From: Cytophagaceae bacterium
GTDB taxonomy: Bacteria; Bacteroidota; Bacteroidia; Cytophagales; Spirosomataceae
Assembly (NCBI GenBank): GCA_947450365.1
Contig: CANFVE010000015.1
Location: 1-63,772 of the forward strand
DNA length: 63,772 nt
Direction: 5' to 3'
The notes under the pieces are model-generated. The model saw only the letters and a program-made list of their open reading frames with translations. It was not told where the DNA came from and made no database searches. Shown here piece after piece: positions 20,168-33,542 of the stretch. The position numbers were made by a program, and so were the translations under genes. Positions within the stretch are counted from its first letter, which is position 1. Every line of letters begins with the position of its first letter.

Positions 20168-21418
20168 ATGAAAAAGGTAATAGTAGCGATTGGATTGTAT
20201 TGTTCGTTTTTGCAGGGTGCAAAAGCTCAGGAGTTCTTGTTTTACAATCGGGGGCCTAAGGGAGGGAATACCTTGACGGATAATAGTTCGGATTTTGTGA
20301 AGAGACAATTGAAGTTCGAGGAGGTCAATTTGGTGACGGGATATTATTTGCAAGACGGCAATAATTCGGCGGTAACGGGGGGGATTGGAACGGAGAAATT
20401 AACGGATTTGGCAAATTCTTTTGAGATTCGTTTTTCGAAATTAGATCGATTTAATCGATCACATAGTTTTACGTTGGATTTTAACATAGATACATATACC
20501 TCTGCCAGTTCGGATAAAATAGATCCATTGACGGTTTCGTCTGCGTCAAAGTCGGATAAACATATTTATCCGAGTATTTCGTGGTCGGTGAACGATCCGG
20601 TGGTTGGATTTACCCAGGGATTAAGTTATTCCTATTCGACGGAATATGATTATAAATCCCATGGAATAAATGCCTTTATCACAAAACTTTCGAAGGACAA
20701 GAATACAGAAATCACGGTAAAAGCGGGTGCGTTTTTTGATACTTACATGTGTATTTTACCTTCGGAAATGCGTCCATATTTTTATCCGTCGGGGGCGGAG
20801 CGAGATCAGGAGGGGATTGATTATAAGCCGAGGAATTCTTTTAATGCCTCGCTATCTATTTCGCAGGTGATAAATCAGCGTTTGCAGGTGATGGCGATGA
20901 TTGAACCGAGTTTTCAGGAGGGTTTGTTGAGCACGCCTTTTCATCGGGTATTTTTCACGAATGGGAATTCGACGGTGGAGAAATTGCCGGGGACTCGTTA
21001 TAAATTACCGATTGGTTTGCGTTTAAGTTATTTTGCGGGGGATAAAACCGTTATTCGGGCATTTTATAGGGGTTATGTGGATGATTGGGGGATGACGGCA
21101 CATACGGCGAATTTGGAAGTTCCGTATAAGATTACGCCGTTTTTTTCTGTGAGTCCGTTTTATCGATTTAATGTGCAATCAGCGGTTCGCTACTTCAAAC
21201 CTTATGCCCAGCATACCACGACAGAGTCTTTTTATACCTCTGATTATGACATTTCAAGTTTTACGAGCCAGTTCATGGGTGTCGGCCTTCGAATCGCGAC
21301 TCCGGGTGGGATTTTGGGCTTGATTAATTGGAATTCTTTGGAGTTACGTTATGGCTATTATTCTCGTTCGAATGGGATGGTCGGCCATAGCATTTCTGCG
21401 CATATAAAAATCAAGTAG
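20168..21418 (+). CDS. DUF3570 outer-membrane beta-barrel protein
   Basis: A 416-residue protein with a signal peptide (cleavage near AKAQ) and a series of amphipathic strands rich in aromatic residues, ending in SISAHIKIK, consistent with an outer-membrane beta-barrel. The segment FDINTYTSASSDKIDP-like (residues about 104-119) with DKIDPLTVSSAS and SDKHIYPSISW is typical of DUF3570. In other Bacteroidota this family sits beside DUF4266, ApbE and thioredoxin genes, as here. Its role is unknown; it may anchor or export the DUF4266 partner, or form an electron conduit like other porin-cytochrome systems (inference). It closes the operon, and hairpin copy B follows. Confidence 0.85.
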   Translation: MKKVIVAIGLYCSFLQGAKAQEFLFYNRGPKGGNTLTDNSSDFVKRQLKFEEVNLVTGYYLQDGNNSAVTGGIGTEKLTDLANSFEIRFSKLDRFNRSHSFTLDFNIDTYTSASSDKIDPLTVSSASKSDKHIYPSISWSVNDPVVGFTQGLSYSYSTEYDYKSHGINAFITKLSKDKNTEITVKAGAFFDTYMCILPSEMRPYFYPSGAERDQEGIDYKPRNSFNASLSISQVINQRLQVMAMIEPSFQEGLLSTPFHRVFFTNGNSTVEKLPGTRYKLPIGLRLSYFAGDKTVIRAFYRGYVDDWGMTAHTANLEVPYKITPFFSVSPFYRFNVQSAVRYFKPYAQHTTTESFYTSDYDISSFTSQFMGVGLRIATPGGILGLINWNSLELRYGYYSRSNGMVGHSISAHIKIK

Positions 21419-21735
21419 TTGATCGGCCAAATTCCAGAAAATTCAGTTTTCTTTTTACCCATATTCTGGCTTTTCCTTAGCTTTGTCAATCCTTCCCGGT
21501 TTGACAAAGCTCAAGGGGAAACCCACTTATAAACTCTTCATCATCCTTCAGAACCTTTGTTAATTCACTAATTTTGAATTATGTATAAGTAATTGATTTT
21601 CAATTATTTGTATATTTTTTTGATATAATTTTGGACATATTGTTCATAAAAATGGACAAAAATTAAACCTTTTCGGTTTTATAAGAGGGCTTAAAAGATG
21701 TATTTGGGATATGATTCTCTATACCTTTTTTCCTA
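21419..21735. other. 317-bp intergenic region with hairpin B and an AT-rich leader
   Basis: The first third holds hairpin copy B. The rest is very AT-rich. Two exact TAATTTTG boxes (21568-21575 and 21626-21633) match TAnnTTTG. The second has a TTTG (21607-21610) only 15 bases upstream, shorter than usual. Either could start the signalling operon, whose GTG is at 21736. No open frame of note and no tRNA was seen. Confidence 0.5.
21479..21511 (+). repeat. Interspersed hairpin element, copy B
   Basis: Stem AGCTTTGTCAA (21479-21489) / TTGACAAAGCT (21501-21511) around apex TCCTTCCCGGT. Flanks CCTT and AAGG extend the stem with one bulged C. It lies 60 bases after the DUF3570 stop, without a T-tract. 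Confidence 0.85.
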
Positions 21736-24700
21736 GTGAAATCCTTTAAGCTAACTTACGCATTAACCTTATTATTTATAGGTGCATTCCTTCCGGATTC
21801 CTTGGCCACGGACAAGGTTCCAAGCAAGTCTGTTCGAAATGATTTGGAGCAGGGAAATTTTTTCATTAAACATTACAAGCGAGATTTTTTAAATTCGGTT
21901 TATGCGAACTGGACGCTTATTCAGGACCAGGATGGTATCATATATGTTGGGAACACCATAAAAGGTGTCATAGAATTTGATGGGCAACGTGTGAAACGGA
22001 TTATTAAGAATAAAGTTCCCATGAATGCCTTCGTTCGAGAAATGGGAATGGACTCTCGAAATACCATTTACGTAGGAACAGGTAACAATTTCGGGTATCT
22101 ACAAAAGAACAAATTCGGTGACCAGGAATATATCTCATTGTCAGATGAGCTACCGAAAAAAGATGAATTAACCTCTACTTTTTGGGGATTGTGTGTACAT
22201 CATGACACTACTTTCTTTCAAACGGAGGATGCGGTTTATCTATACCGCTATAAAAAATTTCTAAGGGTCTTTAAATTTAAGGAAACGGTCCACGTGTTAA
22301 ACGAAACGCCCAATGGAGTATTTTTACGTGTTTGGGGAAAGGGTTTGATGCGATTTAATAAGGACAAGGGATTTCAACTTATTCTTGGCACTGCGAAAAT
22401 TTTTGCCCAAAACCGTGTAGATGCATTGTATTTATTGCAATCAGGTGATCATTTATTGGTCTCTAGAAATGTAGGATTTTACCTGTTGAAAAAGAATGGA
22501 ACCGTCGAAAAAGTTCAAAACCCATTCATTAATCAATATGTGATCGAAGGCCATTCCTACATGGGTTCTTCCGTCATGAAAAATGGTAAAATACCAGTAA
22601 TTACTTCTGACCGAGGAATTTTATTTTTAAATCAAGATTTGAGTTTAAATGCTGAGATTGGAGTAAAAAGTGGATTACATGAAGAAGGATTTTCTTATTA
22701 CATTCAAGATCGTGCGGGGGACATCTGGGGGGCAAATTCGGGGATTACAAAAATCTCTTTTGATCCCTCATTGACAAATTTTTCATCCATCAATGGACTA
22801 AAAGGTGGTGTCTCTGATATTAAGCGCATAGGAGGTGTTTTGTATGTACGAACATCGGATGATTTATTTAGATTTAATCCCAAAAAATCAGTTGCTGACT
22901 TGTCGACATTTACCTCCATGGGTATTACCGAGTTAGGTGGGCGTTTCATTCCGTTTGGGGATCAAATTGTTAATACCAATAATTACACCATCAATGCGAT
23001 ATACAAAGGAAAAAAAATCCATGTCTCTTCGCTTTATCGATCGAATCATTCGATTCAGGCCAACTTAAACCCCAATTTACTTTATACAAGTAATTCAGCG
23101 TATGGGCTTTTGTTACATGAATTTAGAAATGGAAAATGGGATTCAGTCACTGTAAAAAATGGTGAGACCTATTCAGGAAATAATCTCAAAGAAATTTCAC
23201 CGGGAAAAATTTTGATTTCTACGCGAAAGGGTATGGTCGAATTTGCTTACACCAAATCTGGACAGGGCATTTTTACCCCATATAAGCCTGATAAATTATT
23301 TACACAAAAAAAGGATTTTACCTTTTTGGAAATTCGTGAAAATCTGACGGTTTGCCTGGATTCGGCTAACCGGGTATACTTGCCAGATGTACAGAAGCAC
23401 ATGCTACGCCATACTTCATTTAGTCTAGACAGTATGGTGGCTGGTGAAGTTTGGACTTATGAGTATAATCCGATGGCTGGATACGGCTGGCTATTATGTA
23501 AAAATGGATTATTTAAGACGAAATTTGATCTAAAAAAAGGTTTTTCATTTCAAAAATATCCTCTTTACAAAGTGGATTTATCTGAGCTCAGTTACCGGAT
23601 TATGGTGGAGGGAAAAGGTGAGCATGAGGTAATTTGGTTAGGTTCCCAGGAGAATAAAATTTATCGATATTTGCCTGAATTAGCCATTAAGGAAAAAATA
23701 CCTCAGTTTAAGGCTTTAATTCGACGTATTTCATCGGGAAATGAACCTGTTGAGCTAGAACCAGGTACCTTAGCTTTTGATAAAAACAACCTTGTTTTTG
23801 AGGTGGCATATCCGTTATTTGGTACGGAAAACAAAACTACGTTTAGTTATTGGTTAGAAAATCAAGATGAAACATGGTCTGATTTTGGTTCTGATTCAAA
23901 AAAGGAATATACGAATCTGCATGAGGGAACCTATACATTTCATGTGCGGGCAAAGGATGCGACTGGACATGTTAGCGAGGAAGCAAAGGTTAGCTTCCGA
24001 ATTTCTCCACCGTGGTACCGTACGATTGTTGCCTATATTATTTACTTAGCCATTCTCATTTATTTATTCATTTTATTTGGTCGCTACCAGGCTAAAAAAT
24101 CGAGGGGAAAGGCTGAAGATGAACGTCGAATGGCTGAATTAGAAGCAGCCAAAGATTTACAGAATCGGATGCTTCCTAAGCAATTGCCTCAAAACCTAGG
24201 ATTGGATATTGCGACCTATTTACAAACTTCCTCGGAGGTGGGGGGTGACTATTATGATTTCCATCCACAGCCAGATGGAACACTAATTGCGGTATGTGGA
24301 GATGCTACGGGCCATGGAACGGCTGCGGGCATGTTGGTCTCGATTACGAAAGCGGGCTTGATTGGCCTGCCTTTGGATGAACCCCAACATATGTTGTTTG
24401 ATTTAAATCGACTCGTTAAAAAGGTCGATTTAGGGATTTTACGTATGAGTTTGAATATTGTACATGTCAAAGGAGATAGCTTAGTTTTAAGTTCTGCGGC
24501 GATGCCTCCTTGTTATTTGTACTCGGCAAAATCGAATAGCGTGGAAGAAATTCAGTTGAGTGGATTGCCACTTGGAGGATTGTATGGGGCCACATTTGAC
24601 CAGGTGGAACGATCTTTTGAGGAAGGTGATTTGTTTGTGATCGTTTCGGATGGATTACCAGAAGCACCGAATTTGAAAGGGGTGCAGTTGGGATACCAAG

Positions 24701-24843
24701 CTGTCGAGGAATGCATATTACAACATGCGAATAAAACATCTAATGAGATTAAGGAAGCATTGGTTCAACTTGGACATACGTGGTTGGCCGGTCAAATTAC
24801 TCCAGATGATATTACAATTGTCATAATTAAAAAAACAAAATAA
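21736..24843 (+). CDS. Periplasmic two-component-type propeller sensor with cytoplasmic SpoIIE/PP2C phosphatase
   Basis: A 1035-residue membrane protein starting at GTG. After a signal-like segment (about 1-24) comes a long periplasmic beta-propeller region (about 30-650; repeats such as FSYYIQDRAGDIWGANSGITKISF are weak two-component-regulator propeller motifs), a Y_Y_Y domain (about 690-757, FSYWLENQDETWSDFGSDSK), one membrane helix (about 762-785), a short coiled coil (ERRMAELEAAKDLQNRML) and a SpoIIE phosphatase (about 800-1035). Metal-site Asp residues are in GGDYYD, CGDATGHG, VSDGLPEAP and PDDITIV. It would dephosphorylate a STAS anti-anti-sigma-type protein in response to an outside signal; the kinase and STAS genes follow within 4 bases. 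Propeller sensors in this phylum usually end in a histidine kinase; here the output is a phosphatase. Confidence 0.9.
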   Translation: MKSFKLTYALTLLFIGAFLPDSLATDKVPSKSVRNDLEQGNFFIKHYKRDFLNSVYANWTLIQDQDGIIYVGNTIKGVIEFDGQRVKRIIKNKVPMNAFVREMGMDSRNTIYVGTGNNFGYLQKNKFGDQEYISLSDELPKKDELTSTFWGLCVHHDTTFFQTEDAVYLYRYKKFLRVFKFKETVHVLNETPNGVFLRVWGKGLMRFNKDKGFQLILGTAKIFAQNRVDALYLLQSGDHLLVSRNVGFYLLKKNGTVEKVQNPFINQYVIEGHSYMGSSVMKNGKIPVITSDRGILFLNQDLSLNAEIGVKSGLHEEGFSYYIQDRAGDIWGANSGITKISFDPSLTNFSSINGLKGGVSDIKRIGGVLYVRTSDDLFRFNPKKSVADLSTFTSMGITELGGRFIPFGDQIVNTNNYTINAIYKGKKIHVSSLYRSNHSIQANLNPNLLYTSNSAYGLLLHEFRNGKWDSVTVKNGETYSGNNLKEISPGKILISTRKGMVEFAYTKSGQGIFTPYKPDKLFTQKKDFTFLEIRENLTVCLDSANRVYLPDVQKHMLRHTSFSLDSMVAGEVWTYEYNPMAGYGWLLCKNGLFKTKFDLKKGFSFQKYPLYKVDLSELSYRIMVEGKGEHEVIWLGSQENKIYRYLPELAIKEKIPQFKALIRRISSGNEPVELEPGTLAFDKNNLVFEVAYPLFGTENKTTFSYWLENQDETWSDFGSDSKKEYTNLHEGTYTFHVRAKDATGHVSEEAKVSFRISPPWYRTIVAYIIYLAILIYLFILFGRYQAKKSRGKAEDERRMAELEAAKDLQNRMLPKQLPQNLGLDIATYLQTSSEVGGDYYDFHPQPDGTLIAVCGDATGHGTAAGMLVSITKAGLIGLPLDEPQHMLFDLNRLVKKVDLGILRMSLNIVHVKGDSLVLSSAAMPPCYLYSAKSNSVEEIQLSGLPLGGLYGATFDQVERSFEEGDLFVIVSDGLPEAPNLKGVQLGYQAVEECILQHANKTSNEIKEALVQLGHTWLAGQITPDDITIVIIKKTK

Positions 24844-24846
24844 GCT

Positions 24847-25263
24847 ATGGGAAAACCAAAAATTGAATTGAAGCTACCCATCTTGCCAGACATGGAGTTG
24901 GTTGCAATTAATACCGCTGAGGTGGTAGCCAAACACATGGATTTGAGCGATGATAAGGCAGCTGAGATCAGCATGGCTCTTATTGAGGCCTGCATTAATG
25001 CTTTTGAACATTCGAGGGCAGAAAATAATATATTCATCCATTTTATTTTGGAGGATGATTCCTTGGTGATCAAGGTGATCGATCAAGGGATTGGATTTGA
25101 TAAATCCAATGTGGAGATTCCGAAAATTGAAAATAAAGTTGGAACCGATGAACGAAAAAGGGGTTGGGGCTTACAATTAATTCAAGAATTAATGGATACC
25201 GTTGAATTTGAATCGACGAAAGAGGGTACTACTGTAACAATGACAAAAAAGAAAGAATCATGA
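24847..25263 (+). CDS. RsbW/SpoIIAB-like ATP-binding serine kinase (anti-sigma-factor type)
   Basis: A 138-residue GHKL ATPase. It has the N-box ALIEACINAFEHS (Asn51, Glu47), the G1 box DQGIGFD (79-85) and the G2 box RGWGLQLIQEL (105-115). This is the HATPase_c_2 family that phosphorylates a serine of a STAS partner and binds its target in the unphosphorylated cycle. The STAS gene overlaps its stop (ATGA at 25260-25263), the standard pairing. No sigma factor gene is present nearby, so it may bind something else, such as the sensor phosphatases or the cyclase encoded downstream (inference). No membrane segment; cytoplasmic. Confidence 0.92.
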   Translation: MGKPKIELKLPILPDMELVAINTAEVVAKHMDLSDDKAAEISMALIEACINAFEHSRAENNIFIHFILEDDSLVIKVIDQGIGFDKSNVEIPKIENKVGTDERKRGWGLQLIQELMDTVEFESTKEGTTVTMTKKKES

Positions 25264-25601
25264 GCGAATTTAAAGTAAACGTATTAGAAGAAAATAATGT
25301 AATTATCCTTGAAACAGACGGGTATTTGAATAATGTAGGAGGTGAAATGATTTCCTCAGTATGTATGGAGCATATTTCAAACGGGAAAAATAAAATTCTC
25401 CTAAATTTGGCTAATACCAAAGTAGTAAATAGTATAGGTGTTTCCATTCTCATTGAAATCATCGAAAAACTCCAAGAAACGGATGGTAAACTGGGCTATT
25501 ATAATTTAGCTCCGATCGTAGACAAAACCTTTAAAATTATGGGATTAACAAAATATTCCACCGTTTTTGCTGATAAGGAAGATGCCTTGACTAATTTTTA
25601 A
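25260..25601 (+). CDS. STAS domain anti-sigma-factor antagonist
   Basis: A 113-residue single-domain STAS protein. The fold reads as strand-helix repeats, with the phosphoacceptor segment VVNSIGVSILIE: Ser58 sits at the place of the regulatory Ser of SpoIIAA/RsbV, at the start of the conserved helix. The kinase gene directly upstream would phosphorylate it and the SpoIIE phosphatases encoded on both sides would reverse this. It overlaps the kinase by four bases and is 9 bases before the second phosphatase gene. In classical systems the unphosphorylated form frees a sigma factor from the kinase; here the final target is not known. Confidence 0.93.
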   Translation: MSEFKVNVLEENNVIILETDGYLNNVGGEMISSVCMEHISNGKNKILLNLANTKVVNSIGVSILIEIIEKLQETDGKLGYYNLAPIVDKTFKIMGLTKYSTVFADKEDALTNF

Positions 25602-25610
25602 TACCTTTTT

Positions 25611-28600
25611 ATGAATTTTAGAATTTTAGGGCTTGCCTGCGCATGCATCATGTTCTTTTTTGTAGGACAAGCGCAGAAAAGTGAAAATATTCGGTTTGAA
25701 AATTTGTCGATCCAACAAGGCTTGTCCCAAAGTTCCGTGTTCGATATTCATCAGGATCGTTTAGGCTATTTATGGGTCGGTACCATGGATGGTGTAGATC
25801 GCTATGATGGCTATACGTTTAAGAAATATACCCATTTTTTAGATGATTCGACAACCTTGTCCAGGGGTTGGGTGATGAGTTTAACGGAGAAAAAGAATGG
25901 AGATATAATCGTGGGGACTTCTTTGGGAAGTATTTCGAGCCTAAATAAGAAAACGGGAAAATTTCAAAATTACGAGAATACGTTTCGAGAAATTTTAAGG
26001 AAAAGGTTAAAGTTGCCAAGCCTCCCGAGTGCCTATGGGGCTGTTTTGTCCTTATATTTAGAAACTAATCAAAAAATACTGTGGTGCGCGACGAATGGGC
26101 TTGGTTTATTGCGGGTCGATTTATCGACCGGCGAACAACGCGCCATGGCTCCCCTCACACTCATTCGAAATGCAAAACTCGAATTAGCAGATCAAATAAT
26201 TTTTTCGATCAGTCCTTTGGATGAACAAACATTGCTCTTGTCGACAGGGAATGGACTAAAGGTATTCGATATACGAACAGAAAAAATCGTTTTTCAATCC
26301 CTCAGAACAAATCTGCCAGCAGAGCAAAATATGTGTTATGAAGCAATTCCAGTTGGCCAAGGCAGGTTCTGGTTAGGTACCCAGCAAGGTATATTTGAAT
26401 TTAAAAAAACAAATCAATCGTTTCAGGTGAATAAAGTCCAATTGCCCGGATTGGATTTGTCAAAGGTGACGATTCCAAGTTTGATGTTGGATAAAAAATC
26501 AGGAGAAGTATGGTTTTCAGCGATAGGAGTCGGGATTTATGTCTATCAATTGGCTAATCAGCAATGGAAATTATTGAGGAATACCAACGAGATCCGCTTA
26601 GACAAATGTCGATTTGATCGTATTTTACAAGATAAAAATGGGGTTATTTGGATCGGAACGGATACCTATGGCCTGCTTGCTTATGACCCTGGGAAAAATA
26701 AATTTGGTCTCTTTGCGAAAGAGGCCACCAAAAATGTAGGATTAGGTTTTTATAGTACTTGGGGCAGTTTCATCGATAAGGATCAAAACCTATGGATCGG
26801 AAATGCGGATGCGGGTCAAAGTTCCGTGGCATTTATTGACCGAAAAACAGGTCAAAAAACATTGGTTCCCGTGATGCGGGGGGATGCGGATTTAAACCCA
26901 TTATATCATATTCGAGGTGATTTAGGAGGAAATATTTGGCTTTATGTGACCACAAAGGAAGGGCGTAAATTATTCATTAAAAAACCCAAGGATAAGGTAT
27001 TTTCCCCTTTTAAATTGCCGATACCCGATAGTGTATATATGAAAAAATATGCCGGATCGCTTTCCCATTATTTGACCCGCTCAGGGGATTTAATTAAAGG
27101 AGGATATCGCGTGCAATGGCTTTCTGATGCCCATGGGAAACCCATATTTCGAGATTATGTAGAGAAAGTGAGTCAAATGCCTGATTCGATTCGGGTGTTT
27201 TGTCGGGACAAAGATTTCACCTATTTATATTCGTTGAACCACCTCTATCGTTGGAATGAGCGGTCTAATGAAATTCAACGGATTAGCCAAAAGCCAATAG
27301 GTTTGGTAGGGAAAACCATGGTCAGTTCATTTGCCGTGCATCAAGGACGTTTCTTTTATTTTCCTACCTATGGAAGCGGAATTTTAAAATATGATGTTAC
27401 GACGCAAAAAGTAAGCTATTTGAATCAGCGGAATGGTTTATCCACATCTGCATTTTATGATATTTACAAGGACAAGTCAGGGATGATGTGGCTAAGTTCT
27501 AATTATGGAATTGTTCGCCTGAATCCTGCCACTGATGATATTCGTGTATTTACTCCTTCCGATGGGGTGCAGGGATTTGAATTTAATTCAAATAGTTCTT
27601 TTCAACATGAATCGGGAGAAATCATTTTTGCCGGAGTAAATGGGGTAAATGTGTTTAATCCTTTGGAAATCAAAGATAATTCTGTCGCACCTCGGGTGTT
27701 GATTCAAAGCCTAAAGACGAATCTACAGAATTGGATTATTGATGATGATCAATTTGATACGCAAATTATCCTTAATGCTGAGGAAAAGGCTGTTTCGTTG
27801 GATTTTATTGCGCTGAATTTTAGGAATGCAACTCAGAATCGCTATGCCTATCGGCTGGTTGGCTACGATAAGGATTGGGTATATTGTGGAGATCGACGCT
27901 TTACGACCTATACCAATTTACCGGCAGGGGAGTATGTGTTTCAGGTCAAGGGATCGAATAATGATGGGGTTTGGAACGAGCAAGGGGCAAGTATTCGCAT
28001 CAAGGTTTTGCCTCCTTGGTATTTGACATGGTGGGCTTTGGTAATTTATGTTATCCTATTGACTATGGGTATCCGGTATTTAGTCGCTTACCGGGAACAA
28101 ATTCAGCGGAAAAAAATGGAAGAGCGCAGGAAAAACTCCGAGCTTAAGGCAGCGCAGGATTTACAAAAAAGTATGTTGCCCAAAGAATACCCCAAACGTA
28201 AAGATTTAGCTATTCATGCTTTTATTCGTGCCTCTACCGAGGTGGGGGGTGATTATTATGATTTTTTTGAACAGGAAGATGGGACTTTATTTGTCGTGTG
28301 TGGGGATGCAACGGGCCATGGAACGACCTCGGGCATGATGGTCTCAATTACGAAAGCCGGGTTGAATGGAATTGAGCCTAAGATGCCTAATTTGATTTTA
28401 GAGCAACTGAATCAAGTAATCAAACGCGTGGATCTAGGTGTTTTACGGATGAGTTTAAACATGGTCAAATTTGATGCGGACCATATGTATTTAGCTTCCG
28501 CAGCGATGCCACCGATGTATCATTTTGTGGCGAAGACGGGTTTGGTTGAAGAAATCCAGCAAATAAATTTGCCCTTAGGCGGTTTAAAAAAAGAGACCTT

Positions 28601-28844
28601 TGACCTAGTTACTCGACCTTTTGAACAGGGAGATGTATTGGTTCAATTATCTGATGGAATTCCTGAGGCGCCGAATCCACAAGGGGAGATGTTTGATTAT
28701 GACACCTTGGCTGAATTAATCCAGCAGCATGGTCGTTCTTCAATACAAGAGATACATGCAGCCATCATGGAAGCGGTGGATGCCTGGTTGGGAGGTCAAC
28801 ACAATCCAGACGATATCACCTTGGTGATTACAAAGAAGCAATGA
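25611..28844 (+). CDS. Second propeller/Y_Y_Y sensor with SpoIIE/PP2C phosphatase
   Basis: A 1077-residue paralogue of the protein encoded at 21736. It has a signal peptide (cleavage near GQAQ), a periplasmic two-component-regulator propeller with much clearer repeats than its paralogue (SSVFDIHQDRLGYLWVGTMDGVDRYDG, IYKDKSGMMWLSSNYGIVRL, ILQDKNGVIWIGTDTYGL), a Y_Y_Y domain (YRLVGYDKDWVYCGD), one membrane helix (WWALVIYVILLTMGIRYLV), a coiled coil and a SpoIIE domain with GGDYYD, CGDATGHG, LSDGIPEAP and PDDITLV. It could feed a second signal into the same kinase/STAS pair. It overlaps the cyclase gene by four bases (ATGA), so translation is coupled. Confidence 0.92.
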   Translation: MNFRILGLACACIMFFFVGQAQKSENIRFENLSIQQGLSQSSVFDIHQDRLGYLWVGTMDGVDRYDGYTFKKYTHFLDDSTTLSRGWVMSLTEKKNGDIIVGTSLGSISSLNKKTGKFQNYENTFREILRKRLKLPSLPSAYGAVLSLYLETNQKILWCATNGLGLLRVDLSTGEQRAMAPLTLIRNAKLELADQIIFSISPLDEQTLLLSTGNGLKVFDIRTEKIVFQSLRTNLPAEQNMCYEAIPVGQGRFWLGTQQGIFEFKKTNQSFQVNKVQLPGLDLSKVTIPSLMLDKKSGEVWFSAIGVGIYVYQLANQQWKLLRNTNEIRLDKCRFDRILQDKNGVIWIGTDTYGLLAYDPGKNKFGLFAKEATKNVGLGFYSTWGSFIDKDQNLWIGNADAGQSSVAFIDRKTGQKTLVPVMRGDADLNPLYHIRGDLGGNIWLYVTTKEGRKLFIKKPKDKVFSPFKLPIPDSVYMKKYAGSLSHYLTRSGDLIKGGYRVQWLSDAHGKPIFRDYVEKVSQMPDSIRVFCRDKDFTYLYSLNHLYRWNERSNEIQRISQKPIGLVGKTMVSSFAVHQGRFFYFPTYGSGILKYDVTTQKVSYLNQRNGLSTSAFYDIYKDKSGMMWLSSNYGIVRLNPATDDIRVFTPSDGVQGFEFNSNSSFQHESGEIIFAGVNGVNVFNPLEIKDNSVAPRVLIQSLKTNLQNWIIDDDQFDTQIILNAEEKAVSLDFIALNFRNATQNRYAYRLVGYDKDWVYCGDRRFTTYTNLPAGEYVFQVKGSNNDGVWNEQGASIRIKVLPPWYLTWWALVIYVILLTMGIRYLVAYREQIQRKKMEERRKNSELKAAQDLQKSMLPKEYPKRKDLAIHAFIRASTEVGGDYYDFFEQEDGTLFVVCGDATGHGTTSGMMVSITKAGLNGIEPKMPNLILEQLNQVIKRVDLGVLRMSLNMVKFDADHMYLASAAMPPMYHFVAKTGLVEEIQQINLPLGGLKKETFDLVTRPFEQGDVLVQLSDGIPEAPNPQGEMFDYDTLAELIQQHGRSSIQEIHAAIMEAVDAWLGGQHNPDDITLVITKKQ

Positions 28845-30940
28845 AGAATTTAGCGTTTAAACAGTTAGAGCTGGAAACTTTATTGGAGATTACCAATACC
28901 TTGATCGAGCATGAGAATGTCAATGATTTATTACAGGATATTCTGATTAGGACTTGCGGGATTTTGGATGCGTCTTCGGGATTTGTGCTTATTGAGGAAA
29001 AAAATTCTGATTTATTTATCCCAAAGGCGGTATTTAATTTTGATGAGGAGGTATTGCAAAGGATAATTTTCAATAAGAAAAAGGGTTTTTTGCAGAAGTT
29101 GGCTCTCCAGAAAAAACGTCATGGATGTATTCCGATGGATGATTTGGTCATGGAGAAATTGGGTCGGACCTTTTCGTTGGTGGCACCGATTACCGGAAAA
29201 AATCAGTTATTGGGTTGTTTGGTGATTTTGGATAAGGAAATGCGCAATGGTTTGTCGGATTTCACTCGGGACGATGTCGAAATGTTTTCAGCGATTTCGG
29301 TACAGGCCAGTGTTGCTTATAATAACACGTTTTTGTTGGATACCTTGCTTGAGTCCAAGCGATTCAACGAAAACATTATGGAGTCAATTCATACAGGGGT
29401 GATTACGACGAATTTATTCGGGGAGATTGATTATGTAAATAAAACGGCGGTTAAGATTTTACAGATATCGCCTGAATTATGTTTGGGGAATCATTATCAA
29501 ATTGTATTTGAAAGAGATGCGGAATTAGTACGGATGTTGGAGCAAGTGGAACTGGACGTGCGGGTTAGTTCCGAACAAAATTTTTTAATTCAAGTAGGTC
29601 CGGAGCCGAGGCATGTGAATTTGACTATTTCTCCTTTAATTGATGATTTGGGGGATCAAATAGGTACGGTCATTGCGATTGAAGATATTTCATATTTAGA
29701 TAAGATTAAGAGTACGTTTAAGAAATATGTATCCAAACAGATTGTGGATAAAATTTTGGAAAACGAAGACCTATTGAATTTAGGCGGACAGGAATTGACC
29801 TTGACGACCTTGTTTTCAGATATTCGTGGTTTTACGAGTATGAGTGAGCGGATGGTGCCGATTGAGGTGGTAAAAACCTTGAATGAGTATTTTGATTTAA
29901 TGATTGATGTGGTTTTTCAGCATAACGGGACACTCGATAAAATCATTGGTGATGCTCTAATGGTCATTTATGGGGCACCCATTCCTGGGCATGATGATAC
30001 CCATCGTGCCCTATTGACGGCCTTGGAAATGCAGAATTTATTGATTGATTTTAATTCGGTTAGGAAGGAAAAGGGTTTAGCACCCGTTGAAATAGGCATA
30101 GGGCTGAATCGTGGAAAGGCGATTGCGGGGAATATCGGTTCGAAAGACCAAATGAATTATACGGTCATTGGGGATGCGGTGAATGTTTCTGCGAGATTAT
30201 GCTCACATGCAGAGGCAGGACAAATTTTGGTTTCGGAATCGGTTGTGAAGGAGGTGGAACTATCAGGTTTATACCTATTTGAGGGTTTAGATCCTATAAA
30301 AGTAAAAGGAAAAGCACAAGCACTTCCAATATTTGCCTTGCGGGGATGCATTGCGAGTAAGCGGGTGATCGGGGTATATGATCGAGTGGTAGGTGGTTTG
30401 TTACGAGACTTGTCTAAGGATTTGTTATACCATTGTTTGGGGCATACGTTGGATGTTTTTCGACAGGCCTATCGATTAGCCCTAGCTGAAAAGTGTTCTC
30501 CAACGGAGGTTGAATTAGTATTAGTCGCAGCGTTATTTCATGATACTGGATTTTTAGTAAACGCAGAGGGGCATGAAGAGGAATCATGTCGATTAGCAAC
30601 TCAGTATTTGCCCGAATTAGGATTCAATTCGGACGAGCTAAATCAAGTAAAGGGAATGATCCGTGCCACAAAGATTCCTCAAAAACCTTTGACTCGTTTG
30701 GAGGAAATTTTGGCAGATGCAGATTTGGATTATTTGGGAAGATCGGATTTTGATGCTATTTCAATGACTTTGTTTGAAGAACTAAAAATCCGTGGAATTG
30801 TACATGATTTGCAAAAATGGGATCAAATTCAATTGACATTTTTGGGGCAACATCAGTATTTTACAGATACAGCCCAAAAGGAGCGAAGCGAACAAAAAAT
30901 GAAACATATTGAACGAATTAAACAACGAAATATAAAATGA
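28841..30940 (+). CDS. GAF-PAS-class III adenylate cyclase-HD domain protein
   Basis: A 699-residue cytoplasmic protein. In order: GAF (about 10-165), coiled linker, PAS (about 180-285), cyclase homology domain (about 315-500) and HD-type phosphohydrolase domain (about 520-690). The cyclase has both metal Asp residues (Asp327 in FSDIRGF, Asp371 in IIGDAL), the transition-state pair Asn448 and Arg452 (NVSAR), and purine-selecting Lys367 with Thr441, the K/T type of bacterial adenylate cyclases rather than the E/C of guanylate cyclases. The HD part has HTLD, FHD (His567-Asp568) and a later Asp near 630. It thus seems able to make cAMP; the HD part might degrade a nucleotide. It overlaps both neighbours by four bases and is the only obvious output in the operon. 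Confidence 0.9.
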   Translation: MKNLAFKQLELETLLEITNTLIEHENVNDLLQDILIRTCGILDASSGFVLIEEKNSDLFIPKAVFNFDEEVLQRIIFNKKKGFLQKLALQKKRHGCIPMDDLVMEKLGRTFSLVAPITGKNQLLGCLVILDKEMRNGLSDFTRDDVEMFSAISVQASVAYNNTFLLDTLLESKRFNENIMESIHTGVITTNLFGEIDYVNKTAVKILQISPELCLGNHYQIVFERDAELVRMLEQVELDVRVSSEQNFLIQVGPEPRHVNLTISPLIDDLGDQIGTVIAIEDISYLDKIKSTFKKYVSKQIVDKILENEDLLNLGGQELTLTTLFSDIRGFTSMSERMVPIEVVKTLNEYFDLMIDVVFQHNGTLDKIIGDALMVIYGAPIPGHDDTHRALLTALEMQNLLIDFNSVRKEKGLAPVEIGIGLNRGKAIAGNIGSKDQMNYTVIGDAVNVSARLCSHAEAGQILVSESVVKEVELSGLYLFEGLDPIKVKGKAQALPIFALRGCIASKRVIGVYDRVVGGLLRDLSKDLLYHCLGHTLDVFRQAYRLALAEKCSPTEVELVLVAALFHDTGFLVNAEGHEEESCRLATQYLPELGFNSDELNQVKGMIRATKIPQKPLTRLEEILADADLDYLGRSDFDAISMTLFEELKIRGIVHDLQKWDQIQLTFLGQHQYFTDTAQKERSEQKMKHIERIKQRNIK

Positions 30941-31809
30941 GTACACATTCTACCAAGCATTACATAGGGGATTTTTTATACGCTACCTCGGGTATATTAT
31001 TTGCTGGATTTGCCTTGAAAAGTTTTTTAGTTCCTAATCATTTTTTAGATGGGGGAGTAACGGGTGTAGCCTTGTTAATTCACGAGACCTATCATATACC
31101 GATTGCATGGCTCATCATTCTTTGTAATATTCCATTTGTTGTCATGGGAGGTTATCTAATCAATAAAGCCTTTGCATGGAAAACCTTAGCAGCAGTGGTG
31201 GGCTTGGCTCTGGCCTTGACTGTGATTCCATATCCAATCGTTACGTCTGATAAATTATTGATTTCGTTGTTTGGAGGACTATTTTTGGGTTTAGGAATTG
31301 GTTTAGGTATGCGTGGAGGATGTGCGATTGATGGGATTGAGGTGTTAGCTTTATATACGTTGAAACGTTCAGGATTTACAATAACAGAGATCATCTTGGG
31401 CATTAACGTGATTTTATTTTTGATTGCGGCTTTAGGGTTAGGGCTGCCTACGGCTTTGTATGCGATGCTAACCTATTTTGTTGCCACGAGAAGTATCGAT
31501 TATGTGATAGAAGGGCTTGAGGAATATACGGGTGTGACGATCATTTCCAAAAACCATGATGCCATCAAAAAAGGATTGGTGATGAAAATGGGCAAGGGTA
31601 TTTCAGTTTACAAGGGCGAGCGAGGATTTATGAAGGAAAGTTTTGATGTAAGTCACCCGACAGACATTATTTTTACAGTGGTAACTCGATTTGAAGTACG
31701 TCATTTGCGTAGCTTGGTGTTAGCCTTAGATCCCAATGCCTTTATTTTTACGAATACAATTAAAGAGGCAGCAGGTGGCGTATTATTAAAACGAAAAGGA
31801 GAGCATTGA
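30937..31809 (+). CDS. YitT family membrane protein (DUF161 plus DUF2179)
   Basis: A 290-residue protein with five to six hydrophobic segments in residues 1-190 (first YATSGILFAGFALKSFLVPN, with GGVTGVALL, GLGIGLGMRGGCAIDGIEVLAL) and a soluble C-terminal DUF2179 domain (about 215-285, GKGISVYKGERGFM, IFTVVTRFEVRHL). YitT proteins are widespread inner-membrane proteins of unclear function, with transport suggested. The start overlaps the cyclase stop (ATGA), so it belongs to the signalling operon and may be a controlled transporter or a further output (inference). It is the last gene of the operon; hairpin copy C follows without a terminator. Confidence 0.88.
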   Translation: MSTHSTKHYIGDFLYATSGILFAGFALKSFLVPNHFLDGGVTGVALLIHETYHIPIAWLIILCNIPFVVMGGYLINKAFAWKTLAAVVGLALALTVIPYPIVTSDKLLISLFGGLFLGLGIGLGMRGGCAIDGIEVLALYTLKRSGFTITEIILGINVILFLIAALGLGLPTALYAMLTYFVATRSIDYVIEGLEEYTGVTIISKNHDAIKKGLVMKMGKGISVYKGERGFMKESFDVSHPTDIIFTVVTRFEVRHLRSLVLALDPNAFIFTNTIKEAAGGVLLKRKGEH

Positions 31810-31811
31810 AA

Positions 31812-31884
31812 ATTATCAGTTTTTAATCAAATTAAATCATTTCTACCCTTTAGCTTTGTCAATCCTTGCCGGTTTGACAAAGCT
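31812..31884 (+). repeat. Repeat unit with hairpin copy C
   Basis: The unit begins with ATTATCAGTTTTTA (31812-31825) and, 26 bases later, carries the hairpin AGCTTTGTCAA (31852-31862) / TTGACAAAGCT (31874-31884) around apex TCCTTGCCGGT. The same 14-mer at the same distance precedes copy D at 32817, so a unit of about 73 bp occurs on both sides of arsR-arsI. Confidence 0.8.
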
Positions 31885-31908
31885 AGAAGAGCTCAAAGCT
31901 ATTCTCAT

Positions 31909-31957: not shown

Positions 31958-32293
31958 TTGGGCGCTTCAAAATCCGATTTATTTTCTGAGTCACAAAATG
32001 AAATTGCTTTGCTAGCCAAAGCGATTGGGCATCCGGCCAGGGTGGCTATTTTGCACTATTTACACGCTTCAAATACCTGTATTAACAGTGATTTAGTCCA
32101 GGAATTAGGCTTGGCACAAGCCACCATTTCTCAACATTTGAAAGCATTGAAGGACATCGGAATCATCCAGGGGAGTATTGAGGGCACTTCCATTTGCTAT
32201 TGTATAAATCCTGAAAAATGGGCCTTAATGGGCCAATTATTCGGAAATTTTTTTGGTGAATATTCAAATTTTCAAAAAACTAACTGTTGTTAA
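31958..32293 (+). CDS. arsR: ArsR family metalloregulator
   Basis: A 111-residue winged-helix repressor. The core ALLAKAIGHPARVAILHYL and the recognition helix region LGLAQATISQHLKALKDIGII are standard for ArsR/SmtB proteins. Cysteines are at residue 37 (NTCINSD, in the DNA-binding half), near 79-81 (ICYCI) and a C-terminal pair (NCC), a likely arsenite site though not the classic CVCDLC motif. The start is TTG: it is the first start in frame after the operator/-7 box, and no in-frame ATG exists before the conserved core. It is followed after one base by arsI. It would repress its own operon and respond to arsenite or an organoarsenical. Confidence 0.9.
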   Translation: MGASKSDLFSESQNEIALLAKAIGHPARVAILHYLHASNTCINSDLVQELGLAQATISQHLKALKDIGIIQGSIEGTSICYCINPEKWALMGQLFGNFFGEYSNFQKTNCC

Positions 32294-32294
32294 T

Positions 32295-32813
32295 ATGGAA
32301 AATCAATCTCCATTTCCCCGCATGCACGTCTCGCTTTATGTGAGCAATCTGGCGGCGTCTGTCAATTTTTACACGACTTTTTTTGGTCAGGCGGCAAACA
32401 AAATAAAACCAGGTTATGCCAAATATGTTCTTGATTCACCTTCTTTGATCATTTCATTCATTGAAAACCCTGAGCGGGTGCAGGCTAATTTCGGACATCT
32501 AGGGTTCCAAGTTGCCACTTTCGAGGAAATGTCAAAGCGCTTGACTCTTGCACGAAATCAGGGAATAGTTTCCAAAGAGGAAATAGGTACTGCCTGCTGT
32601 TATGCCGTTCAGGATAAATTTTGGGCCACGGATCCAGATGGCGTTCAATGGGAGGTGTATTATTTTCATGAGGACGCGGAGTTCAATGACCCTCATTATG
32701 CGATGGAAGATACCTCTGCCTGCTGTATGCCATCTGTTGCTGAAAAACCAAAGGTGAGAATTGCCGAAATTTCCTCTGCCGTGGGCTGTGCTCCTGGCTC
32801 TGGCTGTTGTTAA
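32295..32813 (+). CDS. arsI: ArsI/CadI family glyoxalase-fold metalloenzyme (organoarsenical lyase type)
   Basis: From the ATG at 32295, one base after the arsR stop, the protein has 172 residues (the frame is open back into arsR, but that part is not conserved-looking). It is a vicinal-oxygen-chelate protein: HVSLYVSNLAASVNFY start with metal ligand His11, then His68 (FGHLGF) and Glu120 (VQWEVYYF). The thiol pair Cys101-Cys102 in TACCYAVQDKFWATDPDG is the ArsI signature that binds trivalent methylarsenite for cleavage of the C-As bond. The C-terminus is Cys-rich (SACC; GCAPGSGCC), as in many ArsI proteins. CadI-like metal sequestration is an alternative reading. Confidence 0.88.
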   Translation: MENQSPFPRMHVSLYVSNLAASVNFYTTFFGQAANKIKPGYAKYVLDSPSLIISFIENPERVQANFGHLGFQVATFEEMSKRLTLARNQGIVSKEEIGTACCYAVQDKFWATDPDGVQWEVYYFHEDAEFNDPHYAMEDTSACCMPSVAEKPKVRIAEISSAVGCAPGSGCC

Positions 32814-32816
32814 TCG

Positions 32817-32889
32817 ATTATCAGTTTTTACCAGCTAATTTTCCTGATTTCCCCTTAGCTTTGTCAAACCGGCAAGGATTGACAAAGCT
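32817..32889 (-). repeat. Repeat unit with hairpin copy D (inverted apex)
   Basis: The left flank ATTATCAGTTTTTA (32817-32830) and the stem AGCTTTGTCAA (32857-32867) / TTGACAAAGCT (32879-32889) lie as in copy C, but the apex reads ACCGGCAAGGA, the reverse complement of the copy C apex TCCTTGCCGGT. The stem is symmetric, so only the apex shows the flip. Confidence 0.8.
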
Positions 32890-32933
32890 AGGTTAGAAAA
32901 AAAGCAAGGGTAAAATGCCAATTAAAAGTTACC

Positions 32934-33542
32934 ATGAACGAAAAATTAAACCTACAAATCGAAGCTGCTTTATCCCTCGAAATTAGTGATGAGCGAAAAG
33001 CAATCTTACAAGTACTCATCGATTACATCAAAAGCAAACGAAAAGCCGAAACCCCAATTCGACTGAATTTCATTTGCACCCATAATTCCAGAAGGTCCCA
33101 ATTTTCGCATATTTGGGCACAAACGGCCGCCGATTATTTTCAAATTCCCGCCCAATGCTACTCCGGTGGGGTCGAAGTGACGGCTTGTAATGAACGTGCC
33201 ATTGCATCTTTGGAACGCTTTGGTTTCCTGATTTCCAAACGAGGCCACTCAAATCCCGTTTACATGATCTTTCATACCCAGGATGCACGCCCAATCCTCG
33301 TTTTTTCTAAATTATTCGATGACCCCGTCAATCCCCACAGCTCTTTTGCAGCCGTCATGACCTGTGATCATGCCGACGAAAACTGTCCCTTCATCCCCGG
33401 CGCAGAAGCCCGGATTCCCGTACGATATGAGGATCCGAAAATGTTTGATGACAGCCCACGAGAGACAGAAAAATATGACGAACGCTCCCTACAAATTGCT
33501 AGCGAAATGTTTTATGTATTTTCAAGAATTGGCTTGAAATAG
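32934..33542 (+). CDS. Low-molecular-weight phosphatase-like arsenate reductase (ArsC/PTP family)
   Basis: A 202-residue protein. After a helical N-terminal stretch of 40 residues not found in the shortest family members comes the P-loop FICTHNSRRSQ (Cys48, Arg54; CX5R), then a long domain with YSGGVEVTACNERA and VMTCDHADENCPFIPGAEARI (Cys residues near 155 and 161). This is the protein-tyrosine-phosphatase-like family often found beside arsR, arsI and acr3 in Bacteroidota and annotated as arsenate reductase or phosphatase. It would reduce arsenate to arsenite using the P-loop Cys and a second thiol. It is separated from arsI by hairpin D. An arsenite efflux gene is not next to it, which is unusual. 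Confidence 0.82.
   Translation: MNEKLNLQIEAALSLEISDERKAILQVLIDYIKSKRKAETPIRLNFICTHNSRRSQFSHIWAQTAADYFQIPAQCYSGGVEVTACNERAIASLERFGFLISKRGHSNPVYMIFHTQDARPILVFSKLFDDPVNPHSSFAAVMTCDHADENCPFIPGAEARIPVRYEDPKMFDDSPRETEKYDERSLQIASEMFYVFSRIGLK

Follow-up and report, generated by a model that had tools for sequence, protein, structure and literature searches.

A putative partner-switching operon with a class III adenylate cyclase as its probable output in a Cytophagaceae bacterium

We analyzed a 63,772-nucleotide stretch of DNA from a Cytophagaceae bacterium (assembly GCA_947450365.1, contig CANFVE010000015.1), referred to as the window, which carries a six-gene operon encoding two sensor phosphatases (A and B), a serine kinase, a STAS protein, a GAF-PAS-cyclase-HD protein and a YitT-family membrane protein (Table 1). 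Our findings suggest that this operon probably specifies a partner-switching pathway with a soluble class III adenylate cyclase as its output. Gene content, intact catalytic residues and the conserved linkage of the kinase, STAS and cyclase genes (the trio) are established, and we infer the steps of the pathway themselves. Three parts of an RsbU/RsbW/RsbV-type partner switch are present, namely a SpoIIE phosphatase, a HATPase_c_2 kinase without HisKA and a single-domain STAS protein with a putatively phosphorylatable serine. A first-pass annotation had described six tightly packed genes separated by gaps of 3-9 bases or joined by ATGA overlaps, and both its coordinates and the spacings agree with ours: the six open reading frames (ORFs), all on the + strand, are spaced by +3, -4, +9, -4 and -4 bases, amounting to three ATGA overlaps and gaps of 3 and 9 bases.

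Sigma factors are the textbook targets of partner switches; a few known switches drive diguanylate cyclases. To follow the trio across genomes, we used the kinase alignment alone as query against 84,980 species, each represented by one genome, obtained 204 relatives, kept the best 80 loci, and counted genes in these by tblastn; the greedy ORF caller behind the locus maps hides genes under antisense ORFs, namely the kinase of L115 and L148 and the STAS gene of L224, L225 and L230. We counted a locus as judgeable when its sequence continued for at least 2,600 bases past the kinase gene (n = 70). The STAS gene lay directly after the kinase gene in 69 of these 70 loci. The cyclase gene belonged to the same gene run in 69/70 as well: in 67 it lay no more than 3.5 kb downstream, in the closest relative, L073 (cyclase 91% identical), it followed an inserted second sensor, and in L083 it lay upstream. 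In L083, two kinase-STAS pairs follow one another, a separate SpoIIE gene precedes each, and one cyclase-HD-YitT set lies upstream. One judgeable locus, L098, had no STAS or cyclase match; its STAS start breaks off, perhaps due to misassembly. Trio loci span several Bacteroidota families and Candidatus Marinimicrobia, and their habitats, taken from record titles, are largely aquatic (mostly water samples). Trio loci L141, L144 and L151 are in records named Porticoccaceae (Pseudomonadota), possibly reflecting inter-phylum transfer or misbinning.

Inputs varied while the trio did not. SpoIIE was present in 40 of the 43 loci with room on both sides (tblastn), and across the 80 loci it was placed upstream, or downstream and convergent, or was not in view, while the sensors were propellers or TPR proteins. 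In many loci without a fused HD domain, a TPR gene is linked to a convergent SpoIIE gene (L117:14903-16483, L113:14680-16269). The six-gene order of the window, in which STAS and cyclase are separated by a propeller gene, was not conserved in this gene-neighborhood survey, recurring in 1 of the 80 loci (L073). We then took the 194 non-core ORFs that lie nearest in the 80 loci, sorted them into 102 groups and ran Pfam on 99 group representatives, looking for a conserved sigma-factor partner. The 25 families listed, of 185 for these 99 linked neighbors, include no sigma-factor family; single-member families lie mostly outside the 25, and a rare sigma factor is possible. Taken together with the trio linkage, these results strongly support the view, already put forward in the first-pass annotation, that the STAS switch would end in a cyclase rather than in a sigma factor.

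The linkage was likewise seen when the cyclase was used as the starting point. A search of 148 genomes of the order identified six genomes of another family (f8) that encode a 520-526 amino acid (aa) GAF-PAS-cyclase without HD, at 47-49% identity. STAS precedes the cyclase in 6/6 of these loci and the kinase does so too in 5, the contig of the sixth (L038) ending before the kinase; each of the six genomes has one class III cyclase. The genome of the window is a 2.66 Mb draft, 93.6% complete, in which domain searches at E <= 0.001 found only the two SpoIIE domains of the operon, only the operon copy of HATPase_c_2 and only the operon copy of a class III cyclase. It contains two STAS genes, the second elsewhere, beside purC as judged by eye. 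In the one genome of the same genus that we examined, there was no class III cyclase and no kinase match.

The residues needed for switching appear intact. The kinase matched PF13581 at E 1.4e-24, with no HisKA listed by Pfam, as well as solved RsbW and SpoIIAB structures, and its Glu47, Asn51 and Asp79 had a frequency of 1.0 in an alignment of 95. The single-domain STAS protein (PF01740) matched solved RsfB/SpoIIAA chains; its Ser58 aligns with the SpoIIAA serine, which we take to be the phosphate acceptor, and Ser58 and the N-S-I-G motif were invariant in 92/92 STAS proteins aligned. The roles that we assign to conserved kinase, STAS and cyclase residues are presumed from family knowledge.

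Both sensors bear a SpoIIE domain above the Pfam cut-off, with motifs GDYYD, GDATGHG and SDG all in place. BLAST aligned them with each other solely over the part that begins at Y_Y_Y and runs to the end, at 47% over 340 positions. Several stretches of sensor B matched solved propeller sensors of the Bacteroides type (4a2l, E 1.8e-74). For sensor A, no propeller repeat was listed by Pfam and solved-structure matches were confined to the Y_Y_Y and SpoIIE parts; its GTG start codon at 21736 is unsure, and the ORF of its nearest relative, in L073, begins differently. Thus, the earlier description of two propeller sensors of the same architecture holds for the propeller of B and for the Y_Y_Y-SpoIIE portion of both, but a propeller was not recognized in A, where we infer one. 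A simple hydropathy scan detected one hydrophobic segment in A (residues 760-786), and an N-terminal segment and one at 799-817 in B. Since a hydrophobic segment directly precedes the phosphatase domain in each sensor, sensing outside and dephosphorylation inside would be the natural reading for both.

We propose that the periplasmic sensor domains would set the activity of the membrane-bound SpoIIE phosphatases. Based on family knowledge and the conserved residues, the RsbW-type kinase would phosphorylate STAS Ser58 and the phosphatases would take the phosphate off. Because the trio is conserved, and by analogy with SiaC-SiaD, unphosphorylated STAS is predicted to bind the cyclase, most likely at its N-terminal helix-GAF-PAS part, changing the synthesis of cyclic AMP (cAMP). 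In SiaABCD of Pseudomonas aeruginosa, the cyclase SiaD is controlled through a phosphatase, a kinase and a STAS-type protein, SiaC, which binds and activates it (PMC8457831). The likeness comprises PP2C phosphatase SiaA, kinase SiaB, STAS-type SiaC, nucleotide cyclase SiaD and a second-messenger output (PMC8457831; passages of PMC9239204). In contrast to the class III adenylate cyclase of the window operon, SiaD is a diguanylate cyclase that makes cyclic di-GMP (c-di-GMP), and window-type loci also differ in that their sensors are propellers or TPR proteins and that membrane end pieces are encoded with them. The operon appears to work like SiaABCD but is not a member of it, having another class of cyclase, another messenger and different sensors and end pieces.

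The same gene set could serve a different topology in which the cyclase is bound and kept inactive by the kinase rather than by STAS, much as sigma-F is by SpoIIAB, until unphosphorylated STAS frees it. Consistent with this alternative, the kinase resembles RsbW/SpoIIAB structures and is the most conserved trio member between the window and f8 (66-68% identity, compared to 48-50% for STAS and 46-49% for the cyclase), whereas the cyclase binder in SiaABCD is SiaC (PMC8457831). The present data seem to fit kinase-bound and STAS-bound cyclase topologies alike, and we regard the kinase-bound form as unlikely.

Several observations weigh against a pathway that ends in the cyclase. A phylum search (395 genomes) returned 22 further kinase relatives, and 20 of their loci were fetched. 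Two of these bear the trio (kinase identity 61% and 41%), one has a stop inside the kinase frame, and in the other 17 (37-42% identity) the next core gene encodes a 417-540 aa SpoIIE protein and there was no cyclase match. With 17/20 distant pairs lacking a cyclase, the kinase-STAS pair appears wider than the trio, the cyclase having been gained or lost, and the kinase-STAS family is evidently not tied to cyclases in general. In addition, the best 80 of the 204 loci (nearly all in metagenome or single-cell assembly records) are akin, such that their counts are not independent; a seventh f8 genome (G137, 63% complete) had no cyclase match in the order-wide search; and linkage of the trio genes does not equal contact of their proteins. 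The distant STAS proteins keep the same N-S-I-G motif, and distant locus L231 has a sensor of the 7TMR-DISM type. Loci L215-L230 and L232 constitute a sister module of kinase-STAS followed by SpoIIE, many with a ~1,250-aa propeller-SpoIIE protein and with no cyclase match.

The 17 distant loci also lend weight to the idea that the cyclase is merely co-transcribed and that the kinase-STAS target is elsewhere, for instance a regulator or anti-sigma factor encoded at an unlinked site; our sigma-factor survey covered linked neighbors only. We nevertheless find co-transcription alone quite improbable, given that the trio is contiguous in 69/70 loci across several families and Candidatus Marinimicrobia while flanking genes change, and that the 25 of 185 families listed for the 99 neighbors include no sigma factor.

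We next considered the class of the cyclase and its likely product. The candidate output enzyme is a class III cyclase (PF00211), and its Pfam listing has no GGDEF. Its Asp327 was invariant in 77/77 rows with a letter at that position, and Lys367, Asp371, Thr441, Asn448 and Arg452 were invariant in the 78 trio cyclases aligned. We take these residues to be the metal aspartates, the transition-state Asn/Arg and the adenine-type Lys plus Thr/Asp; a Lys/Thr pair is of the adenine type in class III cyclases. The best solved-structure matches were adenylate cyclases 6fht and 2w01. As the ATP-type residues are invariant and the best solved matches are adenylate cyclases, cAMP is the likely product. 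An AlphaFold model of the cyclase-HD protein (20 sequences) was confident for the HD part and poor for the catalytic cyclase part. A plasmid search with the cyclase matched 658 records, none covering >80% of the query.

PADLOC models of PycC match the cyclase domain (best E 2.6e-24) and those of PycTM match an L113 neighbor (1.1e-24), but a Pycsar-type anti-phage system, with a pyrimidine cyclase and a membrane effector, is very improbable given Lys367 and Thr441 in 78/78 cyclases in place of the Tyr/Asp/Arg or Phe/Arg/Gln base contacts of two pyrimidine cyclases (passages of PMC11224242), adenylate cyclases as the best-matching solved chains, inputs that look like periplasmic sensors, and no PycTM (PF18967) match in the genome of the window. 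The likeness to Pycsar lies in a class III-motif cyclase with the membrane effector PycTM (passages of PMC11224242), a homologue of which lies close by in 23 of the 80 trio loci, while adenine-type residues, environmental-type sensors and kinase-STAS genes set the trio apart.

Beyond the cyclase, the proposed pathway would continue through an HD domain and a membrane protein. A fused HD domain is carried by 33 full-length cyclases; together with the window, these occupy one part of the cyclase tree (quick method, midpoint-rooted, long branches flagged), and the metal residues of HD were invariant in 35 rows aligned. The next gene in 32 of the 33 encodes either YitT (12) or a TMEM175 homologue (20); the contig of L102 ends there. 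Across the 80 loci, there were 12 YitT and 21 TMEM175 channel homologues in addition to the PycTM cases; TMEM175 identity was checked by Pfam on one (L084) and assigned to the others by similarity to it. The TMEM175 homologue fills the YitT slot in Chitinophagaceae loci. End-piece types cluster on the cyclase tree: loci with YitT make up a single clade that sits among those with TMEM175, as expected from a single end-piece exchange. HD has its own gene in 4/6 f8 loci, where a single gene, a PycTM homologue, stands between it and the kinase.

We also examined 20 loci of HD homologues that do not belong to a trio, with domains checked on three: a response-regulator cyclase was within 1.5 kb in 7, YitT in 6, and either in 11. 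Among the 12 PycTM loci that scored best in the order, 11 have this HD subfamily and PycTM in one open frame (406-457 aa). Given these associations, cyclase, HD and membrane protein recur together with either a two-component or a partner-switch input. Foldseek of the cyclase-HD model returned PDE2A and PDE6 at TM-scores near 0.2 over the whole chain, lending weak support to a phosphodiesterase-like fold of HD, and also 4mcw (HD-GYP) and 2pq7 (HD hydrolase); the fused HD would either hydrolyze or bind the cyclase product. An AlphaFold model of YitT (7 sequences) had a pLDDT of 53 and was not used.

Regarding the receiver of cAMP, no cNMP_binding match was found in 6/6 f8 genomes examined (72-93% complete) or in 14 of the 48 other trio genomes, for which no completeness is given; many of the genomes are incomplete. 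On this basis CRP appears unlikely as a general receiver, and the best candidate may be either the HD domain or the linked membrane protein. The latter, co-transcribed and represented by YitT in the window and by TMEM175 or PycTM in other loci, would then be the likely local effector replacing CRP, which is the weakest step of our model. Three findings speak against such a route. At least one cNMP_binding match was present in 34 of the 48 further genomes. The genome of the window has four cNMP_binding proteins, making a CRP-like receiver possible there; the Arg-Ser pair, the usual phosphate-binding motif of such proteins, was seen by eye in none of the four. Finally, PycTM occurs (once per genome) in 25/55 trio genomes compared to 57/148 genomes of the order, which is hardly more frequent; with enrichment not clear, it is the place of PycTM, not its presence, that serves as evidence. 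We therefore offer only tentatively, as a rather doubtful extension, a CRP-free cAMP pathway of largely aquatic Bacteroidota and Marinimicrobia in which a STAS phospho-switch would relay extracellular sensing to a class III adenylate cyclase, with HD and an exchangeable membrane effector serving to receive cAMP at the membrane. Control of YitT, as suggested in the first-pass annotation, gains from the recurrence of YitT beside HD in two-component-driven modules and loses from its being one of three alternative end pieces, and is possible but weaker. Overall, of that interpretation the switch ending in a cyclase was well supported, the exact six-gene order was not conserved, and YitT as target was weakened.

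Compared to RsbU-RsbW-RsbV and SpoIIE-SpoIIAB-SpoIIAA, the operon has the same three protein classes, with a cyclase in the place of the sigma factor and none of the latter seen alongside. In HsbA-HsbD of Pseudomonas aeruginosa, an anti-anti-sigma-type protein is reportedly linked to a cyclase; unlike that of the window, it is said to be a diguanylate cyclase and tied to the HptB cascade. For Campylobacterota, sets of periplasmic PP2C, STAS-kinase and c-di-GMP enzyme were predicted from co-occurrence (passages of PMC9239204); the logic is the same, but the enzymes are for c-di-GMP, and adenylate cyclases there are in separate CHASE2-type clusters, according to the same passages. A STAS protein or partner switch acting on an adenylate cyclase was not found among the open-access titles and abstract openings listed, subscription papers and preprints being outside that scope, and the word cyclase is absent from the main text of a 2021 review of STAS-only proteins (PMC8256260).

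The operon is bracketed by copies of a perfect 34-base palindrome (Table 1), of which the genome has 8 at <=2 mismatches (backwards control, 0). Changes among copies are paired and keep the stem, and the element looks like a REP-type or terminator hairpin. It separates the operon from the gene directly upstream, which encodes a DUF3570 protein (20168-21418). Downstream (31958-33542) are an ArsR-type regulator (Pfam), a glyoxalase-like protein with C-terminal Cys pairs (by eye) and a low-molecular-weight-phosphatase-like ORF (by eye).

Table 1. Operon genes and palindrome copies in the window.
Feature	Positions	Strand	Description
Sensor phosphatase A	21736-24843	+	1035 aa; Pfam Y_Y_Y + SpoIIE; N-terminal sensor region (propeller presumed)
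RsbW/SpoIIAB-type serine kinase	24847-25263	+	138 aa; Pfam HATPase_c_2, HisKA none listed
STAS protein with N-S-I-G motif	25260-25601	+	113 aa; Pfam STAS
Sensor phosphatase B	25611-28844	+	1077 aa; Pfam Reg_prop + Y_Y_Y + SpoIIE
GAF-PAS-class III adenylate cyclase-HD	28841-30940	+	699 aa; Pfam GAF + PAS + Guanylate_cyc + HD; no hydrophobic segment
YitT-family membrane protein	30937-31809	+	290 aa; Pfam YitT_membrane + C-terminal DUF2179
Perfect 34-base palindrome (hairpin) before operon	21478-21511	+	hairpin
Palindrome copy after operon	31851-31884	+	strong hairpin; 31845-31900: -22.6 kcal/mol, z -5.3
Third palindrome copy, 1 kb further on	32857-32890	-	

If true, a widespread switch driving an adenylate cyclase would add a second-messenger branch to the RsbW-type kinase family, hint at a role for the cyclase in small genomes where a CRP-type domain was not found, and tie YitT, bacterial TMEM175 and PycTM to one signal. 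Should the CRP-free reading hold as well, the system would be an environmental counterpart of Pycsar, and YitT would be a membrane protein governed by a cyclic nucleotide.

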